Part shown: in pieces, positions 4 to 15,298 of the stretch
Layout of the letters: each line of letters begins with the position of its first letter
How positions within the stretch are numbered: position 1 is the stretch's first letter
NCBI GenBank assembly: GCA_021783475.1
Contig: JAJXTU010000002.1
Coordinates: forward strand, 1 to 60,479
DNA from: a bacterium
Lineage (GTDB): Bacteria > Thermodesulfobiota > Thermodesulfobiia > Thermodesulfobiales > Thermodesulfobiaceae
Length of the DNA stretch: 60,479 nucleotides
Direction of reading: 5' to 3'
The notes under the pieces: generated by a model
What the model saw: the letters and a program-made list of their open reading frames with translations, nothing else
The model's database searches: none
What the model was told of the DNA's origin: nothing
Program-made: the position numbers and the translations under genes

Positions 4-3000
4 GTTAGAGAAATTCCCTGATGAATAAGGGATTGCGACATACACCCTTGAAATCTCCTAAAGCATCTGCTATTATTGTTAGAGAAATTCCCTGATGAAT
101 AAGGGATTGCGACTTATTTAATATTCTCCTGAGTAAAATTCATTTTTAGTCAACTGGTTAGAGAAATTCCCTGATGAATAAGGGATTGCGACTTGGGATA
201 AACCCGTATTTATACAAAGACAAACTTAAGTTAGAGAAATTCCCTGATGAATAAGGGATTGCGACTAAATGTACAAGTTTTCAGTGTAACACTTTTCTTG
301 ATAACTGTTAGAGAAATTCCCTGATGAATAAGGGATTGCGACCCGTCATACTGTACGAAAAACCCTTGATCGGTTTTGACTGTTAGAGAAATTCCCTGAT
401 GAATAAGGGATTGCGACTCTATAATAGAACTCGGGATAACCCTTATCCCAAGTTAGTTAGAGAAATTCCCTGATGAATAAGGGATTGCGACCTGAATCGG
501 GGAAGTGAAGGTTTAAATCTCCACCACTCTTAGTTAGAGAAATTCCCTGATGAATAAGGGATTGCGACTATATATCAATAGTCATTCTAATTACCTTCCT
601 TTCTTGTATGTTAGAGAAATTCCCTGATGAATAAGGGATTGCGACCCAATTATTTCTATAGGCCTTAACGCCTATACAAGAAAGGTTAGAGAAATTCCCT
701 GATGAATAAGGGATTGCGACTTTATAGGGACTCTTTTGCGAGTCCCTTTTTCAATAACGTTAGAGAAATTCCCTGATGAATAAGGGATTGCGACTTTCAA
801 CTTGTCATTTTTCATTACTTTACCTCCCTAACATGTTAGAGAAATTCCCTGATGAATAAGGGATTGCGACTTTTTACCACTCTTAGACTCACTATACAGT
901 GAGTCTAAAGGTTAGAGAAATTCCCTGATGAATAAGGGATTGCGACTTGTATAGAGATTCAACCCAATGCTAACAATCTTATTATCGATGTTAGAGAAAT
1001 TCCCTGATGAATAAGGGATTGCGACTCATTGAGAATGACTTCAAGCTTAAAGTCCTTCAGGTCTATGTTAGAGAAATTCCCTGATGAATAAGGGATTGCG
1101 ACTTTATTATATTTTTCTTTCAAAATTCCAAATATTCTTTTAGTTAGAGAAATTCCCTGATGAATAAGGGATTGCGACTTTAATTGAATAGTATAATTAC
1201 CACCCATTTCTCCCATGTTAGAGAAATTCCCTGATGAATAAGGGATTGCGACTTTATGTTTATTTTTCTGTCTATTTCGTTTATTTCTATTTCTGTTAGA
1301 GAAATTCCCTGATGAATAAGGGATTGCGACTCTTTCTGAATAAGAATACCAGACAGGCATTTTATAAATGTTAGAGAAATTCCCTGATGAATAAGGGATT
1401 GCGACTTTTTTTAAGCGTTTTAGCAAAATCAGGATCGACCTCACTAATTAAAGTTAGAGAAATTCCCTGATGAATAAGGGATTGCGACTTGTTATCTATC
1501 ACTACTGCAAGCCTCTTAAACTTATCGTGTTAGAGAAATTCCCTGATGAATAAGGGATTGCGACTTCTCTATTAGACCATAAGAGTATCTTTCTATCATA
1601 TCGTTAGAGAAATTCCCTGATGAATAAGGGATTGCGACATATTTGCCATCTCTGGCAAATTGCAGTAACTCTTGTTAGAGAAATTCCCTGATGAATAAGG
1701 GATTGCGACTGTCATTTAATGCCAACTGGCGATTTCCGCCAGTTGTAAACGTTAGAGAAATTCCCTGATGAATAAGGGATTGCGACTCATTTTTCACTCT
1801 CCCTTGAATCAGATTTGTAAAACTACTAGTTAGAGAAATTCCCTGATGAATAAGGGATTGCGACTTTTGTTTTCCTTTTTCATTTTGCACTCTCCTAGTT
1901 AGAGAAATTCCCTGATGAATAAGGGATTGCGACCAATGCTTTCGAGGGATATCATTCTTTACTGGGCAATCCAGTGTTAGAGAAATTCCCTGATGAATAA
2001 GGGATTGCGACTACACCGAACATCTTTTCATACAGTTTTGTTATTCTATTGGTTAGAGAAATTCCCTGATGAATAAGGGATTGCGACAATCATACAAGTT
2101 GCATTTCTTACAAATTTGATAATATCAGTTAGAGAAATTCCCTGATGAATAAGGGATTGCGACTAATCTTCCAATGTCTATGGGGTATTTCATTCTTTAT
2201 AGTTAGAGAAATTCCCTGATGAATAAGGGATTGCGACTATGTTACATATTCCGATAACTCATCTAATAGTTCTGATGTTAGAGAAATTCCCTGATGAATA
2301 AGGGATTGCGACAAACTCTAACTCCACTGAAAACATAGGTAATCTTCCCTCAGGTTAGAGAAATTCCCTGATGAATAAGGGATTGCGACATCTAATAGTT
2401 CTGATATTCTTGTTATTGGTCTCATACTATAGTTAGAGAAATTCCCTGATGAATAAGGGATTGCGACTTAACTTCCTGTGCCAGGGTCTTGTTTTCTACA
2501 ATCGCTTTTAAGTTAGAGAAATTCCCTGATGAATAAGGGATTGCGACTTACTCATATTCACTTGACCAACTTTTTTAGACATTTTTTGTTAGAGAAATTC
2601 CCTGATGAATAAGGGATTGCGACTTGTTACCGCACACCCTACACTTCATTTTTTTCTCCTTCGTTAGAGAAATTCCCTGATGAATAAGGGATTGCGACAT
2701 AACCATATCTCCTACTCGGAACGGGTGGTTATTCTCGTTAGAGAAATTCCCTGATGAATAAGGGATTGCGACATAATTACTTCGTTACTCCCAATCTCTA
2801 AATATTCTATCTGTTAGAGAAATTCCCTGATGAATAAGGGATTGCGACTTAAAAGTATAAACTCCTTCGCTCATTTTTCTATAGGTTAGAGAAATTCCCT
2901 GATGAATAAGGGATTGCGACCCAAGAAAGGTAATCATATAACATTTACCAACTTCCATTTTGTTAGAGAAATTCCCTGATGAATAAGGGATTGCGACTCT

Positions 3001-3909
3001 GTATCACATTCTGCCAACTCATCTAACAAACCCGATATGTTAGAGAAATTCCCTGATGAATAAGGGATTGCGACCTACCGTTGGTATAAACCCGTGTTTA
3101 TACAGTAACAAGCTGTTAGAGAAATTCCCTGATGAATAAGGGATTGCGACTTTCTATTAGCTCAAGCCCAGCCTGATTAAACAATGCTAATGTTAGAGAA
3201 ATTCCCTGATGAATAAGGGATTGCGACTCATCAATCCTATTCCCGCATACCCTACACTTCATGTTAGAGAAATTCCCTGATGAATAAGGGATTGCGACGT
3301 AAACATAAAGATTTTCCGTGTAACCTTTTTCTTGATAGTTAGAGAAATTCCCTGATGAATAAGGGATTGCGACTATACTTTCTATTGCTAATCTATTTAC
3401 GATTAGCAAATTTCCAGGTTAGAGAAATTCCCTGATGAATAAGGGATTGCGACATTACCTCCTTTTATTTTTCCTTTAACAAAGGGACTCTCTGTTAGAG
3501 AAATTACCTGATGAATAAGGGATTGCGACTTAAAATAGAACTCTGAGAAAAATAAATTCAAAATCTGATGTGTTAGAGAAATTCCCTGATGAATAAGGGA
3601 TTGCGACGTTTTCTTGGTCTTCACTTTCATACATCTGAAGAAGTTTTGAGTTAGAGAAATTCCCTGATGAATAAGGGATTGCGACAGATAATCTGAAAAC
3701 AAATAATCTGGCATTGTATTGTTAGAGAAATTCCCTGATGAATAAGGGATTGCGACTTCAAAAACATAACCCCTGCCGCTCTTTAGACCAACCTTTGTTA
3801 GAGAAATTCCCTGATGAATAAGGGATTGCGACACATCTTCATATTTTGGTTTAAATATTTCTTCTGGTTTAATGTTAGAGAAATTCCCTGATGAATAAGG
3901 GATTGCGAC
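4..3909 (+). CRISPR. CRISPR array, 52 repeats / 51 spacers within the window, truncated at the left edge
   Basis: 36-bp repeat GTTAGAGAAATTCCCTGATGAATAAGGGATTGCGAC repeated at 4, 78, 157, 230, 307 ... 3874; spacers 33-47 nt. Repeat contains the inverted stem TCCCT/AGGGA and ends in ATTGCGAC, which resembles the 8-nt 5' tag of type I-B/III crRNAs. This suggests the + strand is the crRNA strand. The only variant repeat (3494) is near the right end, consistent with a trailer end there. Strand is inferred. Confidence 0.98.
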
Positions 3910-5053: not shown

Positions 5054-8000
5054 TTATGATTTGCTTATTTCATTCGCGATTAATTCTGTTTGTTTTAATA
5101 CTGTTTCGGTAGCCAAGAGTTCCATATCTGGGGGATAGCCATATTTTCTTAGCGTTCTCTTTACTATAACGCGCAGCTTTGCTCTTGCGCTCTCTCTAAT
5201 CGTCCAGTCAATCGAGGCATTTTCTTTGACTCTTTGATATAGTACCACAGCAAGCTCTCTGAGCTTCTCTTTCCCCATCAAATCCTTTGCGCTTTGGTTA
5301 TCGGCCACAGCGGTATAAAAGGCATACTCGTAATCTGAAAGCCCCATTTCTTCTGGTTCTTTGTCTAAATCTTTGATTTCTTGGGCGAGCTTTATCAATT
5401 CATCTATTACTTGAACTGCAGTAAGTATTTTGTTTTGGTAGTTTTTTATGGATTTTTCCAGCATATTAAGTAAATTCTGACTCTGAACAAAACTTTTCAT
5501 TATTCTGCCCTTAATCTCATTATTAAGTAGTTTTTTTAAGATTTCGATAGCGATATTTTTGTGTTTCATATTTTTTACTTCCAGAAGAAATTCTTCTGAG
5601 AGAACAGAAATATCTGGTTTTTTAATGCCTGCAGCGTCAAATATATCGATTATCTGCTCGCTTACCAAAGCTTTATCTATTACCTGTCTTATGACTGTTT
5701 CCATCTCTTCATTTGTTTTTCCTCCCTCTTTAATCTCAAATTTCACCAATCTTGATTTTACCGCTTGGAAAAAAGCTACCTCCTCTTTAATAATCAATGC
5801 TTGCTCATGAGGGATTGCAATAGCAAATGATTTTGATAGAGCGCTTACCTCGTCTATAAACCTCTTTTTGCCATCTTCAAGGGAGAGAATGTGCTCTTCT
5901 GCAGCAAGAATTATAGATAACTTCTGTGATGTATCAGATGTAAAGTATTTTTGGTAATCAAAGCCATAAAACATCTGAGAGACGACTTCTCGTTTTTCCA
6001 TCATCACTGAAACGGCCTCATCTTGTATAATTGCCGGATCCCCTTTCCCGCCGCTTTCGGAATAGAAGGAAAGAGCCTCTTTGAGGTCAGATGCAAGCCC
6101 AAGATAGTCAACGATTAGGCCTGATGGTTTATCCTTGTAAACCCTATTTACTCTGGCAATGGCCTGCATTAGCGTATGACCCTTCATCGGCTTGTCAATA
6201 TACATTGTGTGCAAACAGGGGACGTCAAAACCAGTTAGCCACATATCGCGGACAATCACGAGCTTTAGCTCATCCTGGGGATTTTTCATCCTATCGCCAA
6301 GCAGTCTTCTTTGGCTTTTGTTGGTATGGTGTTTTGCAATTTCTGGGCCATCTGCTGATGATGAGGTTATTACCACTTTGATAGTGCCCCTTTTCAAGTC
6401 GTCGTTATGCCAGTTAGGGCGTATTTTGATTATCTCTTTGTATAGCTTGGCTGCACTTCTACGAGACATTGTTACAATCATTCCCTTTCCCTCAAACGCT
6501 TCCTGTCTTTGTTCGAAATGATACACAATGTCGCTGGCAAGCTGTTTTAAACGCTGTTTGCTCCCTACGATAGCTTCAAGCTTGGTCCATTTTGCTTTTA
6601 GCTTTTGTGTTTCTGTGAGCGTTTCATATTCAAGTTCTTCGTCCAATTCTTTTACTAATCTTTTGCCGTCCTCGGTTAAGCTTACCTTTACAAGCCGACT
6701 CTCATAGAATATGGGCACGGTGGATTTATCTCTTACTGCCTGAGCGATATCATATACATCAATATAGTTTCCAAAAACTGCAGGGGTATTTCTATCAGAT
6801 TTTTCAATTGGAGTTCCAGTAAATCCAATAAATGTGGCGTTGGGCAAGGCGTCACGTATGTATTTGGCAAAGCCGTATTTGATCTCTCCAGTTTGAGAGT
6901 CGATTTTAGCTTTAAATCCATATTGCGTCCTGTGTGCCTCATCAGCGATGACGATAATATTTTTTCGATCTGATAACATGTCGTAAGTATTATCATCATC
7001 GGGCTGAAATTTCTGGATAGTGGTAAAAACGATACCTCCGGACGCCACTTTCAAAAGTTGTTTTAAGTGCTCTCTATTTCTTGCCTGAACAGGATCTTGT
7101 CTTAGGATCTGTTTTGATGCTGCAAAGGTATCAAAGAGCTGATCGTCAAGGTCGTTTCTATCGGTAATTACCAAAATTGTAGGATTATCGAGCATCTGTA
7201 TAACCTTACCTGCATAAAAGACCATAGAAAGGGATTTTCCGCTTCCCTGGGTATGCCAGACAACGCCTGCTTTTTTGTCTCCTTTTGGTTGTGTTTTTGC
7301 GCTTGGGAGATAAGGATATTCGGGGTTGTCTTGAGAGATGTAGTCTGCATTAAGGCCTACAGCTCTTAGAGTGGACTCTGCTGCCTTGTTTACTGCATAA
7401 TACTGATGATATGCAGCAATCTTTTTACTTGTTTTTATATTAATTTGCCCTGTTTCTTCATCCTCTTTTTTGGATCTATCGAAAACAATAAAATATCTTA
7501 TCAAATCAAGAAGAGTCTCTTTATTAAGCATATTTGAAATTAATATTTCAATCTGACTTAAATGATGGGATGCTTCAGATCTACCATCGACTGTTTTCCA
7601 GGTCATAAAGCGATCGGTTCCGGCTGAAAGACTTCCAGCTTTTGCCTCAAGACCATCTGATATAATCAAAACTTCATTATATTTAAAAAGCGTTGGTATT
7701 GTATCTTTATAGGTTTCCAGCTGCCTAAATGCTGAGCGAATAGTAGCTTGTTCATCTGCAGGATTTTTTAGCTCCATTGTCACGATGGGTAGTCCATTTA
7801 TAAAAAGTATGATATCAGGCCTTTTATTAATATTATTTTCAACAACTTTAAATTGATTGACTACTAAAAATTCGTTGTTTTCTGGGTTGTTAAAATCTAT
7901 AAGCCAGACAAGATCTCCTCTTTCCTCTCCACCTTTACGATAGGTAACTTTAACGCCTTCTGTCAGCATACGATGAAATATCTCATTGCTGGCTATCAGT

Positions 8001-8242
8001 TCGGGGGAGTGAAATCGTCCAATCTCTTGAATGGCATATTTTAGAGCATCGAATGGGATCTTTGGGTTGATTCTCTCTAAGGCTTTTCCCAGCCTTTCAA
8101 ATAGGATCACATCTTCAAAGCTATTCCTTTCTGGATACTTTCCATCAGGTGCAATATCAGGTCCAAAAAGATAGCTATAGCCTTGATGTTTAAGAAGTTC
8201 AATTGCGAAGCTTTCAATTTGTGATTCAGATAATTTAGTCAT
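5054..8242 (-). CDS. hsdR: Type I restriction endonuclease subunit R
   Basis: 1062 aa; nuclease-like LFINGLPIVTMELKNP, Walker A HTQGSGKSLSM, DEAH box ADEAHRTQYG, SF2 motif GFTGTPI. Confidence 0.96.
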   Translation of the reverse strand: MTKLSESQIESFAIELLKHQGYSYLFGPDIAPDGKYPERNSFEDVILFERLGKALERINPKIPFDALKYAIQEIGRFHSPELIASNEIFHRMLTEGVKVTYRKGGEERGDLVWLIDFNNPENNEFLVVNQFKVVENNINKRPDIILFINGLPIVTMELKNPADEQATIRSAFRQLETYKDTIPTLFKYNEVLIISDGLEAKAGSLSAGTDRFMTWKTVDGRSEASHHLSQIEILISNMLNKETLLDLIRYFIVFDRSKKEDEETGQINIKTSKKIAAYHQYYAVNKAAESTLRAVGLNADYISQDNPEYPYLPSAKTQPKGDKKAGVVWHTQGSGKSLSMVFYAGKVIQMLDNPTILVITDRNDLDDQLFDTFAASKQILRQDPVQARNREHLKQLLKVASGGIVFTTIQKFQPDDDNTYDMLSDRKNIIVIADEAHRTQYGFKAKIDSQTGEIKYGFAKYIRDALPNATFIGFTGTPIEKSDRNTPAVFGNYIDVYDIAQAVRDKSTVPIFYESRLVKVSLTEDGKRLVKELDEELEYETLTETQKLKAKWTKLEAIVGSKQRLKQLASDIVYHFEQRQEAFEGKGMIVTMSRRSAAKLYKEIIKIRPNWHNDDLKRGTIKVVITSSSADGPEIAKHHTNKSQRRLLGDRMKNPQDELKLVIVRDMWLTGFDVPCLHTMYIDKPMKGHTLMQAIARVNRVYKDKPSGLIVDYLGLASDLKEALSFYSESGGKGDPAIIQDEAVSVMMEKREVVSQMFYGFDYQKYFTSDTSQKLSIILAAEEHILSLEDGKKRFIDEVSALSKSFAIAIPHEQALIIKEEVAFFQAVKSRLVKFEIKEGGKTNEEMETVIRQVIDKALVSEQIIDIFDAAGIKKPDISVLSEEFLLEVKNMKHKNIAIEILKKLLNNEIKGRIMKSFVQSQNLLNMLEKSIKNYQNKILTAVQVIDELIKLAQEIKDLDKEPEEMGLSDYEYAFYTAVADNQSAKDLMGKEKLRELAVVLYQRVKENASIDWTIRESARAKLRVIVKRTLRKYGYPPDMELLATETVLKQTELIANEISKS

Positions 8243-10943
8243 GGTTAATATCTTTTAACTTTGATTTTAATAAACCTATATCTTTTCCTATATTTTTTTT
8301 TGATGACTTTAAAATTTTTAAAACTTTATTTTCAGTTTCAGGTGTCCAATATATTTTCAATTTTTCTTTTGCTCTTGTTATTGCTGTATAAAAAATACTA
8401 TGCGTTATTAATTCGTCAATTTCATTAGATATAACAATCTTTACAGAATCATATTCTAAGCCTTGTGCTTTATGAATAGAAACAGCATATGCAATTTGAA
8501 AAGGAATTACTGTATTTGGTGATTCGTCATCTTCATCTGTGTTTTTATATTTATTAATACTAAATCTTATTATAGAATTGTTATTATCTAAATTTTCTAT
8601 CAATTCACAATCATAACCTGAGATATCTATCTCATTAATACTTTTACAAACTTCAATATCAAACTGAATTTTATCTTCAAAGTTATTTATGCCAACAATT
8701 TTTCCCTTTAAATTATTATATATCGCAGGACCAAATCTTTTTGTTTCATTAAATAAAATTGGGTCACCTATTTTAAATATTTGTTCTCCCAAGTATATTG
8801 GATTATTCCTATTGTTGGCTTGTAAAAAAATATTGATATTATTTATTCCATAAAAACCATCATAATTTAACAATAAAATTATTTCGTCTTCGTTTTCATT
8901 CTTTTCAAAAATAGAGTTATCTAATTTGGTGGTATAACCTTTTTTTACTAGATATTCTACTATATCATCGTTTAAACTTCTAACTTTATCCCATAAATCA
9001 AGTAATTCTTTATTCTTTGCACGATAAGGTTTTGTTAATTCAGCTATAGATTCTTCAGGAATAAATTTTTTTAAAATACTGAACCAATTACCAAATCTAA
9101 TTGCTTCAATTTGATAAGTATCACCTACCAATATAAGTAATTTATATGGAACTTTTTTTAAAATTTCAACCATATCCTTATTGCTAACAGTGCTACATTC
9201 ATCAACAAAGAGTAAACCATAATTATCTAACTGATTTTGTGATAAAAACTTGGTAATCGTTTTATATTCACAATTTGAAGCATGAACTTTCCCTTTTAAG
9301 TTGTCTACAGCAGGGTTTGTATTAGCTAAAAATAATTTTTTTTGCTCATTGAAAAATTGAGATATATGATTTATTAAGGTTGATTTTCCTGTTCCAGCCG
9401 CACCGTAAATAATAGCTACATGAGATTTTTCAAATATTTTTCTAATTGCCTCTTTTTTCTCATCACAATCAATTATATTTGGGGTTTCTTTTAACCAATA
9501 ATCAACAGAGTCTTTATAACCCCTTACTCCAGATGTAGTTAATTCTTTAATTTTTTTTATAATCTCAATAGTATCTGATTCATATTTAGAGATGTAAACA
9601 AAATTATTGTAAGTTTTTATACTTCGTATTTCATTATGTCCTTTATATAATGAATCATTGTATTTTTTTATTAAGCTATCTATATGTTCAAATCCACAGA
9701 TATCATCTTTTTTAGTATATAACTCTCCCTTTATTTCGGTATTATTTTTAATTATTCTTGCCAAAAATTCGTGTTCTCTATTAGTGAAATCTAAACATTC
9801 AAACAAATCACTTATACTCGGATTGTGATTCACAAGAGAAGTGCAAAATGGCATTTGGTCAAATGGTATACAACCATATTTTAATTTTAAGCCTTGTTTA
9901 TAGTTGCAAAAGTTATTATCGAATTGTTGTTGTTTAATAATTTTATTTTTAAGACTATACAGTAAGTATTTTATTACGTTACTACCATTAGCATTGTTTT
10001 GTATCAACTCATTACATTTGTCTAAAACAATTAAAAATTCTTTACTTTCACTGTTTTTAGTTAAACCAATTTTTAATTCTTCGTAATTTTCTGCAGTAAC
10101 TAAATCAACTAGATTATAATTAGATTTAGTTAAAAATCTCATTAAATTTTTGTATTCCTTATGCCCACTTGAAATATTTAAATTTAAACCGAAAATACTA
10201 GCAAAATTATTCAATTCACACGGGCGTATGGAAACTACCCAATCTTCTATTATTCTGATAGGCATATCTTTATCTAAGATATTAATAGAATCATTTCTTA
10301 GCCAAAGTTTTATAGCATAATGTGATGGTATATCAAATTTTGTATAAGCTATCAATCTATCAAATTTACTAATATTATCGCTTGCTCTTGTAAATGTTAC
10401 TTCGGAATATACTTTTTTGTTTACAAAAAATGGTTTTATCTTTTGAATATAATATCTGTCAGGATAGGAATTATTGTTCTGGTTATTAATTTTTTGAACT
10501 ATTTTTTCATAATATTCTTGTGTAGTTTGATCCATGTTAAGCGGAAATTTATCAATATTTTGAAGTACTTCTAAATTATATTTTTCTTTAAGATAAGATT
10601 TTATTTTTAATAGATATTCATAATATTTTAGCATTAATCGCTCTGAACTATCTTTGTCGTATGTATAGTGAGAAGATACATTCTGTAAAAAGTCATGAAA
10701 TTTGCTTAAAAAGCTAAAGTTTCCTTTTGATTTAATATAATTAATGGCTTTTTTTATATTATCATATGAATTATTAATTTCTTTTCCATCGCTGTAAGTT
10801 AATAGAGAAATATGTTCAACAAAGTCTCTCAGCTCCTTTAGAATGTTTTGTGAAAGTAATCCTCTTTCCTCTTTGTTAAATATTTCTATATTTTCACAAA
10901 TATTTTGATCAATTGTTAAAATATTTTTTTCTATTTCTTTCAT
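8235..10943 (-). CDS. SF1-type (RecD/TraA/UvrD-like) ATPase/helicase embedded in the hsd operon
   Basis: Walker A IIYGAAGTGKSTLINHI, Walker B LLFVDECSTV, LVGDTYQIEAI, C-terminal SIHKAQGLEYDSVKI and YTAITRAKEKLKIYW. Overlaps hsdR by 8 nt and hsdS by 4 nt. Confidence 0.85.
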   Translation of the reverse strand: MKEIEKNILTIDQNICENIEIFNKEERGLLSQNILKELRDFVEHISLLTYSDGKEINNSYDNIKKAINYIKSKGNFSFLSKFHDFLQNVSSHYTYDKDSSERLMLKYYEYLLKIKSYLKEKYNLEVLQNIDKFPLNMDQTTQEYYEKIVQKINNQNNNSYPDRYYIQKIKPFFVNKKVYSEVTFTRASDNISKFDRLIAYTKFDIPSHYAIKLWLRNDSINILDKDMPIRIIEDWVVSIRPCELNNFASIFGLNLNISSGHKEYKNLMRFLTKSNYNLVDLVTAENYEELKIGLTKNSESKEFLIVLDKCNELIQNNANGSNVIKYLLYSLKNKIIKQQQFDNNFCNYKQGLKLKYGCIPFDQMPFCTSLVNHNPSISDLFECLDFTNREHEFLARIIKNNTEIKGELYTKKDDICGFEHIDSLIKKYNDSLYKGHNEIRSIKTYNNFVYISKYESDTIEIIKKIKELTTSGVRGYKDSVDYWLKETPNIIDCDEKKEAIRKIFEKSHVAIIYGAAGTGKSTLINHISQFFNEQKKLFLANTNPAVDNLKGKVHASNCEYKTITKFLSQNQLDNYGLLFVDECSTVSNKDMVEILKKVPYKLLILVGDTYQIEAIRFGNWFSILKKFIPEESIAELTKPYRAKNKELLDLWDKVRSLNDDIVEYLVKKGYTTKLDNSIFEKNENEDEIILLLNYDGFYGINNINIFLQANNRNNPIYLGEQIFKIGDPILFNETKRFGPAIYNNLKGKIVGINNFEDKIQFDIEVCKSINEIDISGYDCELIENLDNNNSIIRFSINKYKNTDEDDESPNTVIPFQIAYAVSIHKAQGLEYDSVKIVISNEIDELITHSIFYTAITRAKEKLKIYWTPETENKVLKILKSSKKNIGKDIGLLKSKLKDINHD

Positions 10944-12148
10944 ATTCTTACTCTCACTTCTCCGCTCATGAGTTTTGGTAGCAGTATATCTCTAAGTTTT
11001 TCCAGTGCACTGATTTGATTATTGTTATTTATTATTATATTAAAATAATCACTCAATATTGATACCTTCTCTTTTATAATAGATAGTGGCGGCACAATTA
11101 ATTTTGTTTTATAAATATCGTTTTTATTAATATGAGGTTGGGCTCCTCCAGTTTCGTTTAAAATAATTTCTTTGATGGTATGTTTGATCCAAAAGAATAC
11201 AAATTCTTTCGGATAGTTTTTATTCGGTATTATGCCAACTACTGACTGATTTGTACAAGTATCTATTTCTAATAAGCTTATTTGTCCAAGAGTTGCCCCT
11301 GTAATAGCTATAACGATTGTTCCTTTTGGTAAAATTTTAGTATTCGAATTTTCAAGACCAAGTTTTGTTATATATCGTGTTGGTTTATATATTCTAAATT
11401 TATTTACCTCACCAGAATTTATCCAAGGCACATCCCCATCCCAATACTCTTGCTTAGTTGTTGATGGAGTCCCACCTAACACAGTTGTTAATTGTTCGCC
11501 AATTGTTGAGGTTCCCCACTCCTCTTTTGCCTCTTCTACAAACCACCTTCTAAAAAGCGTTTCTGCCATCTGCTCTAACGTATTGTTCTGGCGGTGGAGA
11601 AGGTCTATCTTGTCATCCAAAGATGAAAGCACAGAGGTAATGGCTTTTTGTTCGAGAAAGGGTGGCATATAAAATTCATAATTTTTTATTCTAGATGGCG
11701 ATGTATGCATAATAGATGTACCACTTGCAGAGTTTACTATAAAACAGTGATAATCTGGAGTTCTTGTTAGCCAGTATATAAATTCTTTACATACATTATT
11801 ATCAATAAAATCTAATAAACCAATTCGTTGATTGTGTAAGAATATTTTGTTTTTGTAAAAAGGTATCTTTGCAGAGTATCCAAGTGTATCAGAATTTCTA
11901 CTGAGGTCAGTCATTGTAATAATAAAACTTCCTTCAGACAATACGTATTCTCTTGGAAATTGACCTTTGTAATATTTCTGTTTTTCAGACTTAAAGCCTC
12001 CACCTATGTTGAAATTACCAGGAGTTAATAAAATGGCTTCTGTTTCGCCATAGGTAATACCCTCTCCTTTAAATGCGAAACCGTGTTTTATATCTACTAC
12101 TTCCCCCAACTTAACCCTTTTCCACCCATCAGGCACTTTTTCGTTCAT
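10940..12148 (-). CDS. hsdS: Type I restriction-modification specificity subunit S
   Basis: 402 aa, two TRD-like halves (VPDGWKRVKLGEVV...; EEWGTSTIGEQLTTVLGGTPSTTKQEYWDGDVPWINSGEV), LPKLMSGEVRV C-terminus. Confidence 0.93.
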   Translation of the reverse strand: MNEKVPDGWKRVKLGEVVDIKHGFAFKGEGITYGETEAILLTPGNFNIGGGFKSEKQKYYKGQFPREYVLSEGSFIITMTDLSRNSDTLGYSAKIPFYKNKIFLHNQRIGLLDFIDNNVCKEFIYWLTRTPDYHCFIVNSASGTSIMHTSPSRIKNYEFYMPPFLEQKAITSVLSSLDDKIDLLHRQNNTLEQMAETLFRRWFVEEAKEEWGTSTIGEQLTTVLGGTPSTTKQEYWDGDVPWINSGEVNKFRIYKPTRYITKLGLENSNTKILPKGTIVIAITGATLGQISLLEIDTCTNQSVVGIIPNKNYPKEFVFFWIKHTIKEIILNETGGAQPHINKNDIYKTKLIVPPLSIIKEKVSILSDYFNIIINNNNQISALEKLRDILLPKLMSGEVRVRI

Positions 12149-13298
12149 CGCAGGCTCCTATTATTTCAGCAAAATCAACCTTTTTTATGCTTTTTTGTAA
12201 AAATCCTAAAGCATATAGTTCTTCTTTACAATGTAAAATCCTTCCTGCAATTATGCTCTTATGAGTTTTAAACTTTTCTGCAAAATCTTCAATAATTTCT
12301 ATAATAGCTTCTTCATTTTTGCCCCCTGGCGGTAAAGAACTTATTTTGTCTAAAATTTGATTGAATTCCCTTTCGTCTAATAAATAGTTTGCTGCAAATC
12401 TATCTGCACCTCTTTCTTCTTCATTTTTATCTTCAATATCTTCAATATTTTCCAGAAAAATATTTTTTTTATTTCCGTGAAGAATTACATGTCCGAGTTC
12501 ATGAAAAAGAGAAAACCAGAATATATCATATCGTTTGTATTTGTCTGTAAGTTGGATTACAGGATTGTCATCTATCCATCTAACCACTCCATTTATGGAT
12601 GTTTTTGGTAAATTTACAGTATAAACGACCTTAACTCCAACCTTAAGGCAACATTCCTGAATCTTTTTTAAATAGTCTGATGTTTCTGATCTCATAATTT
12701 CTTTTAACTCTATTATAATATCTTTAAGTTTTTTCCTATTAAATGATTGTGCATTTAATTTACTTGCCTCTATTTCTCCCATTCTTAAAAGTGCAGAGAT
12801 GGCGTAAGGATTTTTTCTGTTTTTGAGAGATATTCTGAAAAAAACTGGAACTTCTTGATTAAAATAGATGTTTTTCCATGCTTCGGAAGTTGAAATATTG
12901 AAAAATGATAACAATTCTTTTGCTCTTTCTTTTAAATTGCGAACGCTTTTTACATATCCTAATTTTGCCAACATTGAATATGGAAAATTTTTAGACCAGG
13001 GAATATCAATATTTAACTTATCTCTTTCTTTTTCTCTTGCAATAAATTCGTTATAGCTTGATTGCTTTGATATCCAGAAACTTGCTGGTATATGTAATAC
13101 TTTCTCAAATTGAATTGCCATCTCTGGAGTAATTGAGCACTTTCCATTTAAGACGTTAGAGATAGTTTTTATAGGTTTCCCAATTCTTATTGCAAATTCC
13201 TTGGGAAAAATGTTTAATTCTTCCAGTTTCTCCCTTAAAGTTATTCCAGGATGAACTGCATAATCTGGTTTTAGCATATTTTTTTCTTCCTTAATCAT
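12129..13298 (-). CDS. HigA-type XRE antitoxin fused to ImmA/IrrE-like metallopeptidase domain
   Basis: N-terminal HPGITLREKLEELNIFPKEFAIRIGKPIKTISNVLNGKCSITPEMA (HigA-like HTH); C-terminal FHELGHVILH (HExxH). Confidence 0.88.
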   Translation of the reverse strand: MIKEEKNMLKPDYAVHPGITLREKLEELNIFPKEFAIRIGKPIKTISNVLNGKCSITPEMAIQFEKVLHIPASFWISKQSSYNEFIAREKERDKLNIDIPWSKNFPYSMLAKLGYVKSVRNLKERAKELLSFFNISTSEAWKNIYFNQEVPVFFRISLKNRKNPYAISALLRMGEIEASKLNAQSFNRKKLKDIIIELKEIMRSETSDYLKKIQECCLKVGVKVVYTVNLPKTSINGVVRWIDDNPVIQLTDKYKRYDIFWFSLFHELGHVILHGNKKNIFLENIEDIEDKNEEERGADRFAANYLLDEREFNQILDKISSLPPGGKNEEAIIEIIEDFAEKFKTHKSIIAGRILHCKEELYALGFLQKSIKKVDFAEIIGACDERKSA

Positions 13299-13308
13299 AA
13301 TGAACCCC

Positions 13309-13686
13309 TTAGTGATAATTTATAATCTCAATTATCTCAATTTCAGTAACTTCTGAATATATCAAGCTTCCATCTGCTCTTTTAGGCAAAGGATTGTTAG
13401 CTGGTTTATATATAAGTCTATACGGTTGTTTAAGATCACATGCAAAATATCCTTTTTTGTCGCCTTCTAAAAGATGATGACGTCCTGGTAACTCCATAAG
13501 ATTTTCAAGATTTTCAATCTTTGAAATATCGTCTATCCTTTGCATAATTTTGTCCGCCATATCATTGCCATATTGTTTTATTAGCTCTTTTTTAGAATTT
13601 AATATGTTTCTTAATTTTCTTTTCTTTACAATAATTTTCACAATAAATATAACCCTAACACAAAATAATGTCAATATTTTTAACAC
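13309..13686 (-). CDS. RelE/HigB-like toxin
   Basis: KKRKLRNILNSKKELIKQYGNDMADKIMQRIDDISKIENLENLMELPGRHHLLEGDKKGYFACDLKQPYRLIYKP. The annotated GTG lies inside a palindrome, so the real start is probably downstream (GTG AAA ATT ATT GTA AAG). Confidence 0.82.
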   Translation of the reverse strand: MLKILTLFCVRVIFIVKIIVKKRKLRNILNSKKELIKQYGNDMADKIMQRIDDISKIENLENLMELPGRHHLLEGDKKGYFACDLKQPYRLIYKPANNPLPKRADGSLIYSEVTEIEIIEIINYH

Positions 13687-13703
13687 TAAGTGTTAAAAAT
13701 ATT
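13673..13703. promoter_or_regulatory. 31-bp perfect palindrome, candidate toxin-antitoxin operator
   Basis: AATATTTTTAACACT-A-AGTGTTAAAAATATT: 15-bp arms, 1-nt centre, immediately upstream of the higB-like gene. Confidence 0.65.
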
Positions 13704-13774
13704 TTAACAGATTTTGCTTTATTGTTTGTCATAATTTTATATATATAAATATTTTCGATCATATTTTTAGAAAT

Positions 13775-15298
13775 TTATTTATCAATGTCATTTATTTGGA
13801 TTTTTTCCAGGTTTTCCAGTATTAACTTATTGAGATTCTCTTCTTCTTTTAGCTGTTCCATAAATTCTTTCCTTAGCTTTGAAAACCTCTCTACAAAGTC
13901 AAAGTCGTCTTCTTCTTCGGGTAGCCCCACATATCTGCCTGGAGTTAGCACATAGTCAAGAGCTTTTACCTCTTCAATGGTTGATGATTTACAAAAACCA
14001 GAGATATCTTCGTATTTGCCAGAGGCTGATTTTGTCTGTGCCCAGTTGTGATATGTTTGTGCTATCTTCTGTACATCTTCATCTGTCAAGATCTTTGTTC
14101 TTCGATTTATAAGTACCCCCATATCTCTTGCATCTAAAAAGAGAATCTCGCCTTGCCTGGTCGTCTTGTTCCTTCTCAAAAACCACAGTGAGGCAGGAAT
14201 CTGAGTATTTAGAAATAGCTTGGGTGGAAGATTTACAACACAATCTACTAAGTCATCTTCAATTATTTTTTTTCTGATTTCGTACTCTCCGTTTGTTTTG
14301 GTAGTTAGAGCCCCCTTCGCCAGAACAAAGCCAGCCCTTGCGCCAGGTGCAAGGTGATAGATGAAGTGTTGGATCCAGGCATAGTTGGCATTTCCTTCTG
14401 GAGGGATGCCATACTTCCAGCGCCCATCCTTTCGCAACAGTTCACCGTTCCAGTCGCTATCGTTAAACGGGGGATTGGCAATTACGAAATCTGCCTTTAG
14501 GTCTTTGTGGAGATCGTTTAAGAAAGATCCCTCATTGTTCCATTTAACCTGGGAGCTATCAATTCCTCTAATTGCAAGGTTCATTTTGCAGAGTCGCCAG
14601 GTGGTTTGGTTGCTCTCCTGACCATAGATGGATATATCGTTAACTTTTCCCTGATGGGCAAGAACGAACTTTTCAGATTGTATGAACATACCGCCTGAAC
14701 CGCAGCACGGGTCGAAAACTCTTCCTTTGTATGGCCCTAACATTTCAACAAGGAGTTCTACTACGCTTCGCGGTGTATAGAACTGTCCGCCTTTTCTGCC
14801 TTCTGCTAAAGCAAATTCGCCCAGGAAGTATTCGAAAACATGTCCCAGGACATCAGAACTTCTTTTTTTAGCTTCAATTAAAGTGATATTGCTTATAAGA
14901 TCGATTAATCCGCCCAAGCTTGTAATGTCCAGATTCCCTCTGGCATAAACCTTTGGCAAAACTCCTCTAAGTGAAGGGTTTTCTTTTTCTATAATATCCA
15001 TTGCATCATCAATGTATTTGCCAATCTCAGGAATCTTTGCATTAGCTTGTAGATATGACCAGCGCGCTTTTTGCGGCACATAGAAGACGTTTTCAGCTTT
15101 ATATTCGTCCCTATCTTCTGGATCGGAGAATTCCTTGACTTTCAACTTCTCGTATAAATCTTCAAATGCGCTTGATATGTATTTCAGAAAAATCAAACCT
15201 AAGACCACATGTTTGTATTCTGCAGCATCAATATTTTTCCTTAGCTTGTCTGCAGCCTTCCAGAGCTGTTTTTCCAGCGGTTCATTGTTATTTTTCAT
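13775..15298 (-). CDS. hsdM: Type I restriction-modification DNA methyltransferase subunit M
   Basis: 507 aa; GGQFYTPRSVVELLVEML, VFDPCCGSGGMFIQSE, DFVIANPPFNDSDW (NPPF). Confidence 0.97.
   Translation of the reverse strand: MKNNNEPLEKQLWKAADKLRKNIDAAEYKHVVLGLIFLKYISSAFEDLYEKLKVKEFSDPEDRDEYKAENVFYVPQKARWSYLQANAKIPEIGKYIDDAMDIIEKENPSLRGVLPKVYARGNLDITSLGGLIDLISNITLIEAKKRSSDVLGHVFEYFLGEFALAEGRKGGQFYTPRSVVELLVEMLGPYKGRVFDPCCGSGGMFIQSEKFVLAHQGKVNDISIYGQESNQTTWRLCKMNLAIRGIDSSQVKWNNEGSFLNDLHKDLKADFVIANPPFNDSDWNGELLRKDGRWKYGIPPEGNANYAWIQHFIYHLAPGARAGFVLAKGALTTKTNGEYEIRKKIIEDDLVDCVVNLPPKLFLNTQIPASLWFLRRNKTTRQGEILFLDARDMGVLINRRTKILTDEDVQKIAQTYHNWAQTKSASGKYEDISGFCKSSTIEEVKALDYVLTPGRYVGLPEEEDDFDFVERFSKLRKEFMEQLKEEENLNKLILENLEKIQINDIDK

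Follow-up and report, generated by a model that had tools for sequence, protein, structure and literature searches.

Spacers of the CRISPR array that opens a 60,479-nt stretch of bacterial DNA, the whole of which we call the window, pair up on the same codons of homologous, diverged genes, are almost uniform in strand and are rich in hairpins. The concentration on few sites was found in type III-A arrays, whereas type I-B arrays from the same hosts lacked it. With moderate confidence, we read these features as the record of a type III-A system immunised repeatedly against diverged relatives via a small (3–10 kb), transcribed and RNA-structured territory.

The class of this bacterium comprises four genomes of one genus, possibly Thermodesulfobium. 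The contig start falls inside the array (Table 1), and the leader is missing beyond the left contig end. The only cas locus detected in the genome is of type III-A with a CRISPR-associated primase-polymerase (CAPP). In this locus (L016, contig C14), Csm1 (539 bits), Csm2, Csm3, Csm4 and Csm5 all scored above cut-off, hence its type, and the gene of a type A1 CAPP (NF040561, 284 bits vs. a cut-off of 200) abuts cas1, which is truncated at the contig end and is the sole cas1 detected in the genome. Contig C14 ends in cas1, and contig C88 begins in the array. In the complete genome of a sister species, G002, the genes csm2-csm3-csm4-csm5-CAPP-cas1-cas2-cas4 (the csm names being assigned by position and by homology to the csm genes of the genome studied here) lie upstream of a same-strand array with a near-identical repeat. 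Judging from this link through sister genomes, the window array probably belongs to the III-A/CAPP locus, operon and array being on different contigs. Because of the layout in G002, the window leader is placed off the left end and the high-numbered spacers are taken as older, which bears out the leader-distal orientation that the preliminary description of this DNA had given them. No reverse transcriptase (RVT_1) was found in this genome or in G002; a second sister species, G003, has one on another contig.

Some features around the array and operon were recorded in passing. The repeat at 3494–3529 is the sole variant in the array (C to A at repeat position 13). Genes of the CRISPR-associated families TIGR02710 (CARF) and TIGR02221 adjoin the Csm operon (L016:8302–11003), hinting at cyclic-oligoadenylate signalling. 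A defence cluster adjoins the array: a type I restriction-modification locus (HsdR, HsdS, HsdM; window positions 5054–15298), within which lie a helicase-domain gene (8235–10943) and an HTH/ImmA-like peptidase gene (12129–13298).

Spacers are named W1–W51 in the window (here by number alone), N (93 spacers) in the III-A array of G002 (L028), A (91) and B (49) in the two III-A arrays of G003 (L029, L030), I (84) and J (37) in the type I-B arrays of G002 (L092) and G003 (L093), and C and D in G161 (L072) and G142 (L075), respectively.

Table 1. The window array and those of its spacers that are discussed individually.
Feature	Position	Strand	Sequence and remarks
CRISPR array	4..3909	+	52 repeats GTTAGAGAAATTCCCTGATGAATAAGGGATTGCGAC, 36 nt; 51 spacers of 33–47 nt
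Spacer 3	193..229	-	SLSLYKYGFIP; partner spacer 41
Spacer 4	266..306	-	YQEKCYTENLYI; partner spacer 44
Spacer 9	646..684	+	PIISIGLNAYTRK; hairpin; gene common to spacer 13, orientation opposite
Spacer 12	871..910	-	LDSLYSESKSGK; hairpin; resembles sister-species spacer N67
Spacer 13	947..989	-	IDNKIVSIGLNLYT; partners spacer 9 and sister spacer A53
Spacer 18	1331..1369	-	IYKMPVWYSYSER; resembles sister spacers N76/N78
Spacer 20	1489..1528	-	DKFKRLAVVIDN; gene G1, common to sister arrays A/B
Spacer 23	1710..1750	-	FTTGGNRQLALND; gene G3, common to sister arrays; strong hairpin
Spacer 26	1934..1975	-	VKNDIPRKH; partner spacer 29
Spacer 29	2164..2201	-	IKNEIPHRH; partner spacer 26
Spacer 30	2238..2276	-	ISELLDELSEYVT; 16-nt overlap with spacer 32; weaker partner spacer 40
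Spacer 32	2390..2431	-	YSMRPITRISELLD
Spacer 35	2624..2662	-	gene start and ribosome-binding site, MKCRVCGN; partner spacer 43
Spacer 40	2998..3038	-	SGLLDELAECDT
Spacer 41	3075..3114	-	SLLLYKHGFIPTV
Spacer 42	3151..3191	-	LALFNQAGLELIE; weak match to sister spacer N34
Spacer 43	3228..3262	-	MKCRVCGNRID
Spacer 44	3299..3337	-	YQEKGYTENLYVY

The reverse-strand translations quoted in the preliminary description were all recovered at their positions. Of the homologous pairs that it had claimed, 4/44, 3/41 and 35/43 stood far above shuffled arrays: their ungapped nucleotide scores were 22, 22 and 19, a value that no pair reached in 60 dinucleotide-shuffled arrays, and their protein scores were 56, 47 and 49, compared with a null maximum of 36. 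The pair 30/40 was weaker (nucleotide score 15, matched by 15% of shuffles; protein score 31–34). Its region is also hit by spacer 32, which has 16 identical nt in common with spacer 30 and extends its frame. Two pairs had been missed before, 26/29 and 9/13 (opposite orientations, protein score 42), as had the likeness of spacers 12, 18, 20, 23 and 42 to spacers of the sister species. Among the codons aligned in the five same-strand pairs, 24 were identical, 16 differed synonymously and 12 non-synonymously; for the four pairs that exceeded the sense-frame cut-off, codon positions 1, 2 and 3 were mismatched in 15%, 7% and 40% of cases, as expected if the pairs derive from homologous coding sequence. 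The five same-strand pairs start at offsets of -1, -6, -9, -8 and 0 nt in spacer orientation. Acquisition at nearly the same nucleotide, as had been suggested, thus describes two pairs only, the offsets of the others reaching -9 nt. The notion of a special block of old spacers 40–44, four of which had been given partners elsewhere, was discarded, as 32% of random placements of the 13 paired spacers did as well (permutation P about 0.32).

The same effect was stronger in the two sister species than in the window array. The pooled 284 III-A spacers of the three species gave 148 sense-strand pairs at a score of at least 33, and shuffles gave 0–2; same-site pairs numbered 105 among the 140 spacers of G003 and 15 among the 93 of G002. 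Mismatches in the strong pooled pairs were at 21%, 16% and 47% of codon positions 1–3. At least 24 of the 140 G003 spacers fell on one short region of a single gene, G2 (consensus MLYAVFEGKDGLIYVRPVVKVGTKWVTTWF...), and other III-A targets of G003 were the genes G1, G3, G5 and one starting MKC-x2-CG. As window spacers 12, 18, 20, 23, 35 and 43 map to G1, G3 and the MKC gene, the window array and those of its relatives record the same gene families. This recurrence supports the proposal that diverged relatives from one element family were met repeatedly. In the array of the distant genome G142 (L075), three spacers seem to be duplicated in tandem (D25–27 = D28–30) and D59/D61 and D60/D62 are repeated; it also has diverged same-site pairs of its own.

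Both sister species also carry a type I-B system, and the I-B and III-A systems of one host match some of the same elements (L029/L093 in G003; L028/L092 in G002). The I-B locus of G002 encodes Cas6, Cas8b, Cas7, Cas5, Cas3 and Cas1b and has 84 spacers; that of G003, with 37 spacers, uses an identical repeat and has a cas1 that matches. The I-B arrays contained near-identical repeats of a site, and diverged same-site pairs were essentially absent: about 4,150 within-array comparisons gave five strong pairs, and in four of these the peptides were identical. A pattern like that of III-A is therefore not general to the parasites of the host, and the lack of comparable diverged same-site pairs in the I-B arrays of the same hosts supports acquisition or retention from a small territory, as the preliminary description had it. 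The two kinds of array may draw largely on different elements, and the contrast may then reflect their targets and not selection.

Strand usage separated the two kinds of arrays as well. The antisense strand was purine-rich in 90% of window spacers, and in 77% of sister III-A spacers vs. 44% of same-host I-B spacers (P = 1.5e-10). Matches to a ribosome-binding site with a start codon in the four III-A arrays numbered 28 on the antisense strand, 14 of which are expected from composition alone, and 0 on the other. Moreover, III-A spacers out-folded their dinucleotide shuffles on both strands. Hairpins at p <= 0.01 were formed by 14–18% of sister III-A spacers and 8–16% of window spacers (for example, 6, 9, 10, 12, 22, 23 and 45), compared with 1–2% in lambda, phiX and host (window) genes, under 1% in M13 and 8–9% in MS2/Qbeta. 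The contrast with I-B arrays was moderate by count (8–9 of 121 I-B vs. 37 of 233 sister III-A spacers, P = 0.01–0.03) and not significant in a rank test. Spacers paired at the same site were more structured than the others (24% vs. 11%). At a hot site inside a gene that encodes WVTTWF, the hairpin persists while one of its stem pairs alternates between C-G, A-U and G-C; 96% of cells were paired, and the covariation score was reached by 1 of 500 shuffles. A copy-paste (snap-back) origin of the hairpins was discarded, since overlapping or codon-homologous spacers share the position of the hairpin in the gene and differ in their ends.

Searches for the source of the spacers were negative. Protospacers were found neither in the own genome nor in the genus (blastn and protein search), and no source was found, at the sensitivities used, in 85,488 GTDB genomes, 2.9 million IMG/VR contigs, phages and plasmids. 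Pfam and PHROG scans of the assembled peptides gave nothing above chance and no known levivirus families, and an Rfam scan gave no RNA family match of relevance. The spacers contained no convincing context for a GDD-type RdRP motif (only a chance-like KGDDDEL), and GYxDxG, which we take to be the Oblin-1 motif, was absent from their sense translations.

It is a minor possibility that the targets are small ssRNA-phage-like RNA replicons, recorded by the CAPP-assisted III-A system without a reverse transcriptase. The spacer hairpin density, at least that of MS2/Qbeta and above that of phiX, M13 and lambda, would agree with it, as would the covarying hairpin inside a gene, the stronger structure of paired spacers, the small effective territory and the lack of a DNA copy in the genomes, viral contigs, phages and plasmids searched; RNA-targeted type III spacers also have precedents (PMC10847044, PMC13096302). 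Points against replicons of this kind are the missing RdRP and Oblin-1 motifs, a genome in which no reverse transcriptase was found, and the biochemistry of CAPPs, which use RNA templates poorly in vitro (PMC8211822). Moreover, some I-B spacers resemble or overlap III-A protospacers. Three such likenesses, J36/A59 (score 22), I83/B37 (21) and I40/N19 (20), exceeded the null maximum of 17; J13/A39, with an exact 17-mer in common in opposite orientation, equalled it, and J9/A3 have a terminal 14-mer in common. I83 lies within the main-family gene G1, with a consensus score of 34 vs. a null maximum of 29 (7,260 trials). Type I-B systems acquire from DNA and cleave DNA. To judge from these contacts of I-B spacers with III-A protospacers, some at least of the III-A targets probably have a DNA form, and the view that the targets must be RNA phages is weakened. 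We also consider it unlikely that the CAPP-linked III-A arrays of the genus record fast-evolving, tiny, hairpin-rich RNA replicons that are copied without a dedicated reverse transcriptase. We infer the DNA nature of the family and, likewise, a role of CAPP.

Another doubtful reading places the cause in capture: Cas1-Cas2-Cas4 and CAPP would prefer hairpin-forming ssDNA, which would fix acquisition sites in ordinary DNA phages. CAPPs prime on ssDNA (PMC8211822), and a hairpin excess was seen in the CAPP-linked arrays of three distant genomes (fractions of.14/.20 in G161,.09/.09 in G142 and.12/.06 in G089), and in arrays without a CAPP link the fraction was mostly.00–.08; however, the CAPP-linked array of G129 had no excess. 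Hairpin positions within spacers are broad, like those in random Qbeta windows, which argues against capture of this kind, and the strand uniformity would need extra assumptions. The spacer ends fit it better. In the four III-A arrays, the 3' base of the protospacer (sense) is A in 55% of cases vs. 34% overall, and G is depleted at both ends; this composition bias could be an acquisition signature. Additionally, same-site spacers have coinciding ends at about twice the frequency of a rough uniform expectation. The distant genome G161 (L072:39–5400) has a very similar repeat, GTAAGAATATTTCCCTGATTTATAAGGGATTGCGAC, a CAPP and hairpin-rich, strand-uniform spacers, and the genome G262 (L082) has Cas1 within an 894-aa frame, possibly a fusion, and arrays with strongly strand-biased spacers.

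When same-site pairs were treated as recaptures, with a 24-nt overlap assumed for detection, the effective territory came to about 10 kb for the window, 9 kb for G002 and 3 kb for G003, sizes that are rough upper bounds because pair detection is incomplete. The coincidences in the window array agree with random draws from some 10 kb or less and do not call for nucleotide-precise hotspots. This fit comes close to the outcome that the preliminary description had itself named as speaking against its reading, namely coincidence no better than random sampling of a very small element. Random sampling alone of a single small element family, with no site being special, is nevertheless improbable. The 9–10 kb upper bound from the W and N arrays and the non-significance of block 40–44 speak for it, but the G003 spacers, with their single short gene region and small effective size, show a strong concentration on one gene, beyond uniform sampling. 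Since no protospacer was found, we infer the size of the territory, the order of its genes and the timing of their expression.

Primed adaptation of the type I kind, starting from older spacers with mismatches, which the coexistence of diverged older and newer spacers at the same sites might suggest, is very improbable and was discarded: no Cas3_HD match was found in this genome (95% complete), although the domain is present in G002 and G003, the sole Cas1 stands in the III-A/CAPP locus, and the I-B arrays of the sister species lack diverged same-site pairs. Repeated spacers against escaping relatives are common to such adaptation and the window array, which differs in that acquisition is at the same site and not at neighbouring ones, and in that neither Cas3 nor Cascade was found in its genome.

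Type III systems require transcription of the target, and the crRNA must pair with the transcript. Under the preferred reading of repeated type III-A immunisation, the III-A (Csm)/CAPP array would gather, one after another, spacers against diverged relatives from one or few mobile-element families. A small transcribed territory of about 3–10 kb would supply these spacers, or be the only one for which they survive, and nearly always they are oriented so that mRNA and crRNA pair. Each relative that has diverged would escape older crRNAs, and new spacers against the same genes would then be added or kept, giving rise to same-codon pairs; the population would keep those spacers that target transcripts where targeting protects. 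No PAM and no type-I priming would then be needed to account for the uniform strand, the few genes hit and the same-codon pairs; the cause of the concentration would be selection for targeting early or abundant transcripts, which is known from type III biology, and not such priming. Transcript selection alone leaves the hairpin excess unexplained; its source would be the territory, with structured transcripts or a structured genome, or else the capture step of the CAPP module. Multi-copy gene families within one element could conceivably yield pairs as well.

CAPP-type III-A systems (PMC8211822) and type III spacer sets without a detectable source (PMC5513706) are already known. The locus studied here shares with the CAPP-A1 type III-A system (PMC8211822) csm1–5, a CAPP above the NF040561 cut-off, cas1-cas2 next to CAPP and CARF-type accessory genes nearby; the published work is biochemical, whereas the pattern reported here concerns the spacer repertoire. 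Hyperdiverse source-less spacers of reverse transcriptase-linked type III systems (PMC5513706) likewise have no detectable protospacers, but here CAPP takes the place of a reverse transcriptase, and the spacers cluster on few gene families. Type III spacers on RNA replicons (HsRV/HsPV, PMC10847044; Obelisks, PMC13096302) have in common with ours the strong RNA structure, a small target and a plausible hot-spring context; in contrast, no RdRP or Oblin motif was found here, and I-B spacers suggest a DNA form. A literature search found no paper that describes a CAPP array with same-site clusters, enriched hairpins and a uniform strand and sets it against a same-host type I control.

Most CRISPR spacers, those of type III above all, are without a known source. 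The comparison made here, of same-codon pairs, strand uniformity and hairpin excess with a same-host type I control, works without protospacers, and it shows one type III-A/CAPP system drawing on a small, structured, coding-strand territory. Two questions are thereby made testable: whether CAPP biases capture, and whether the targets are transcripts of DNA or RNA genomes.
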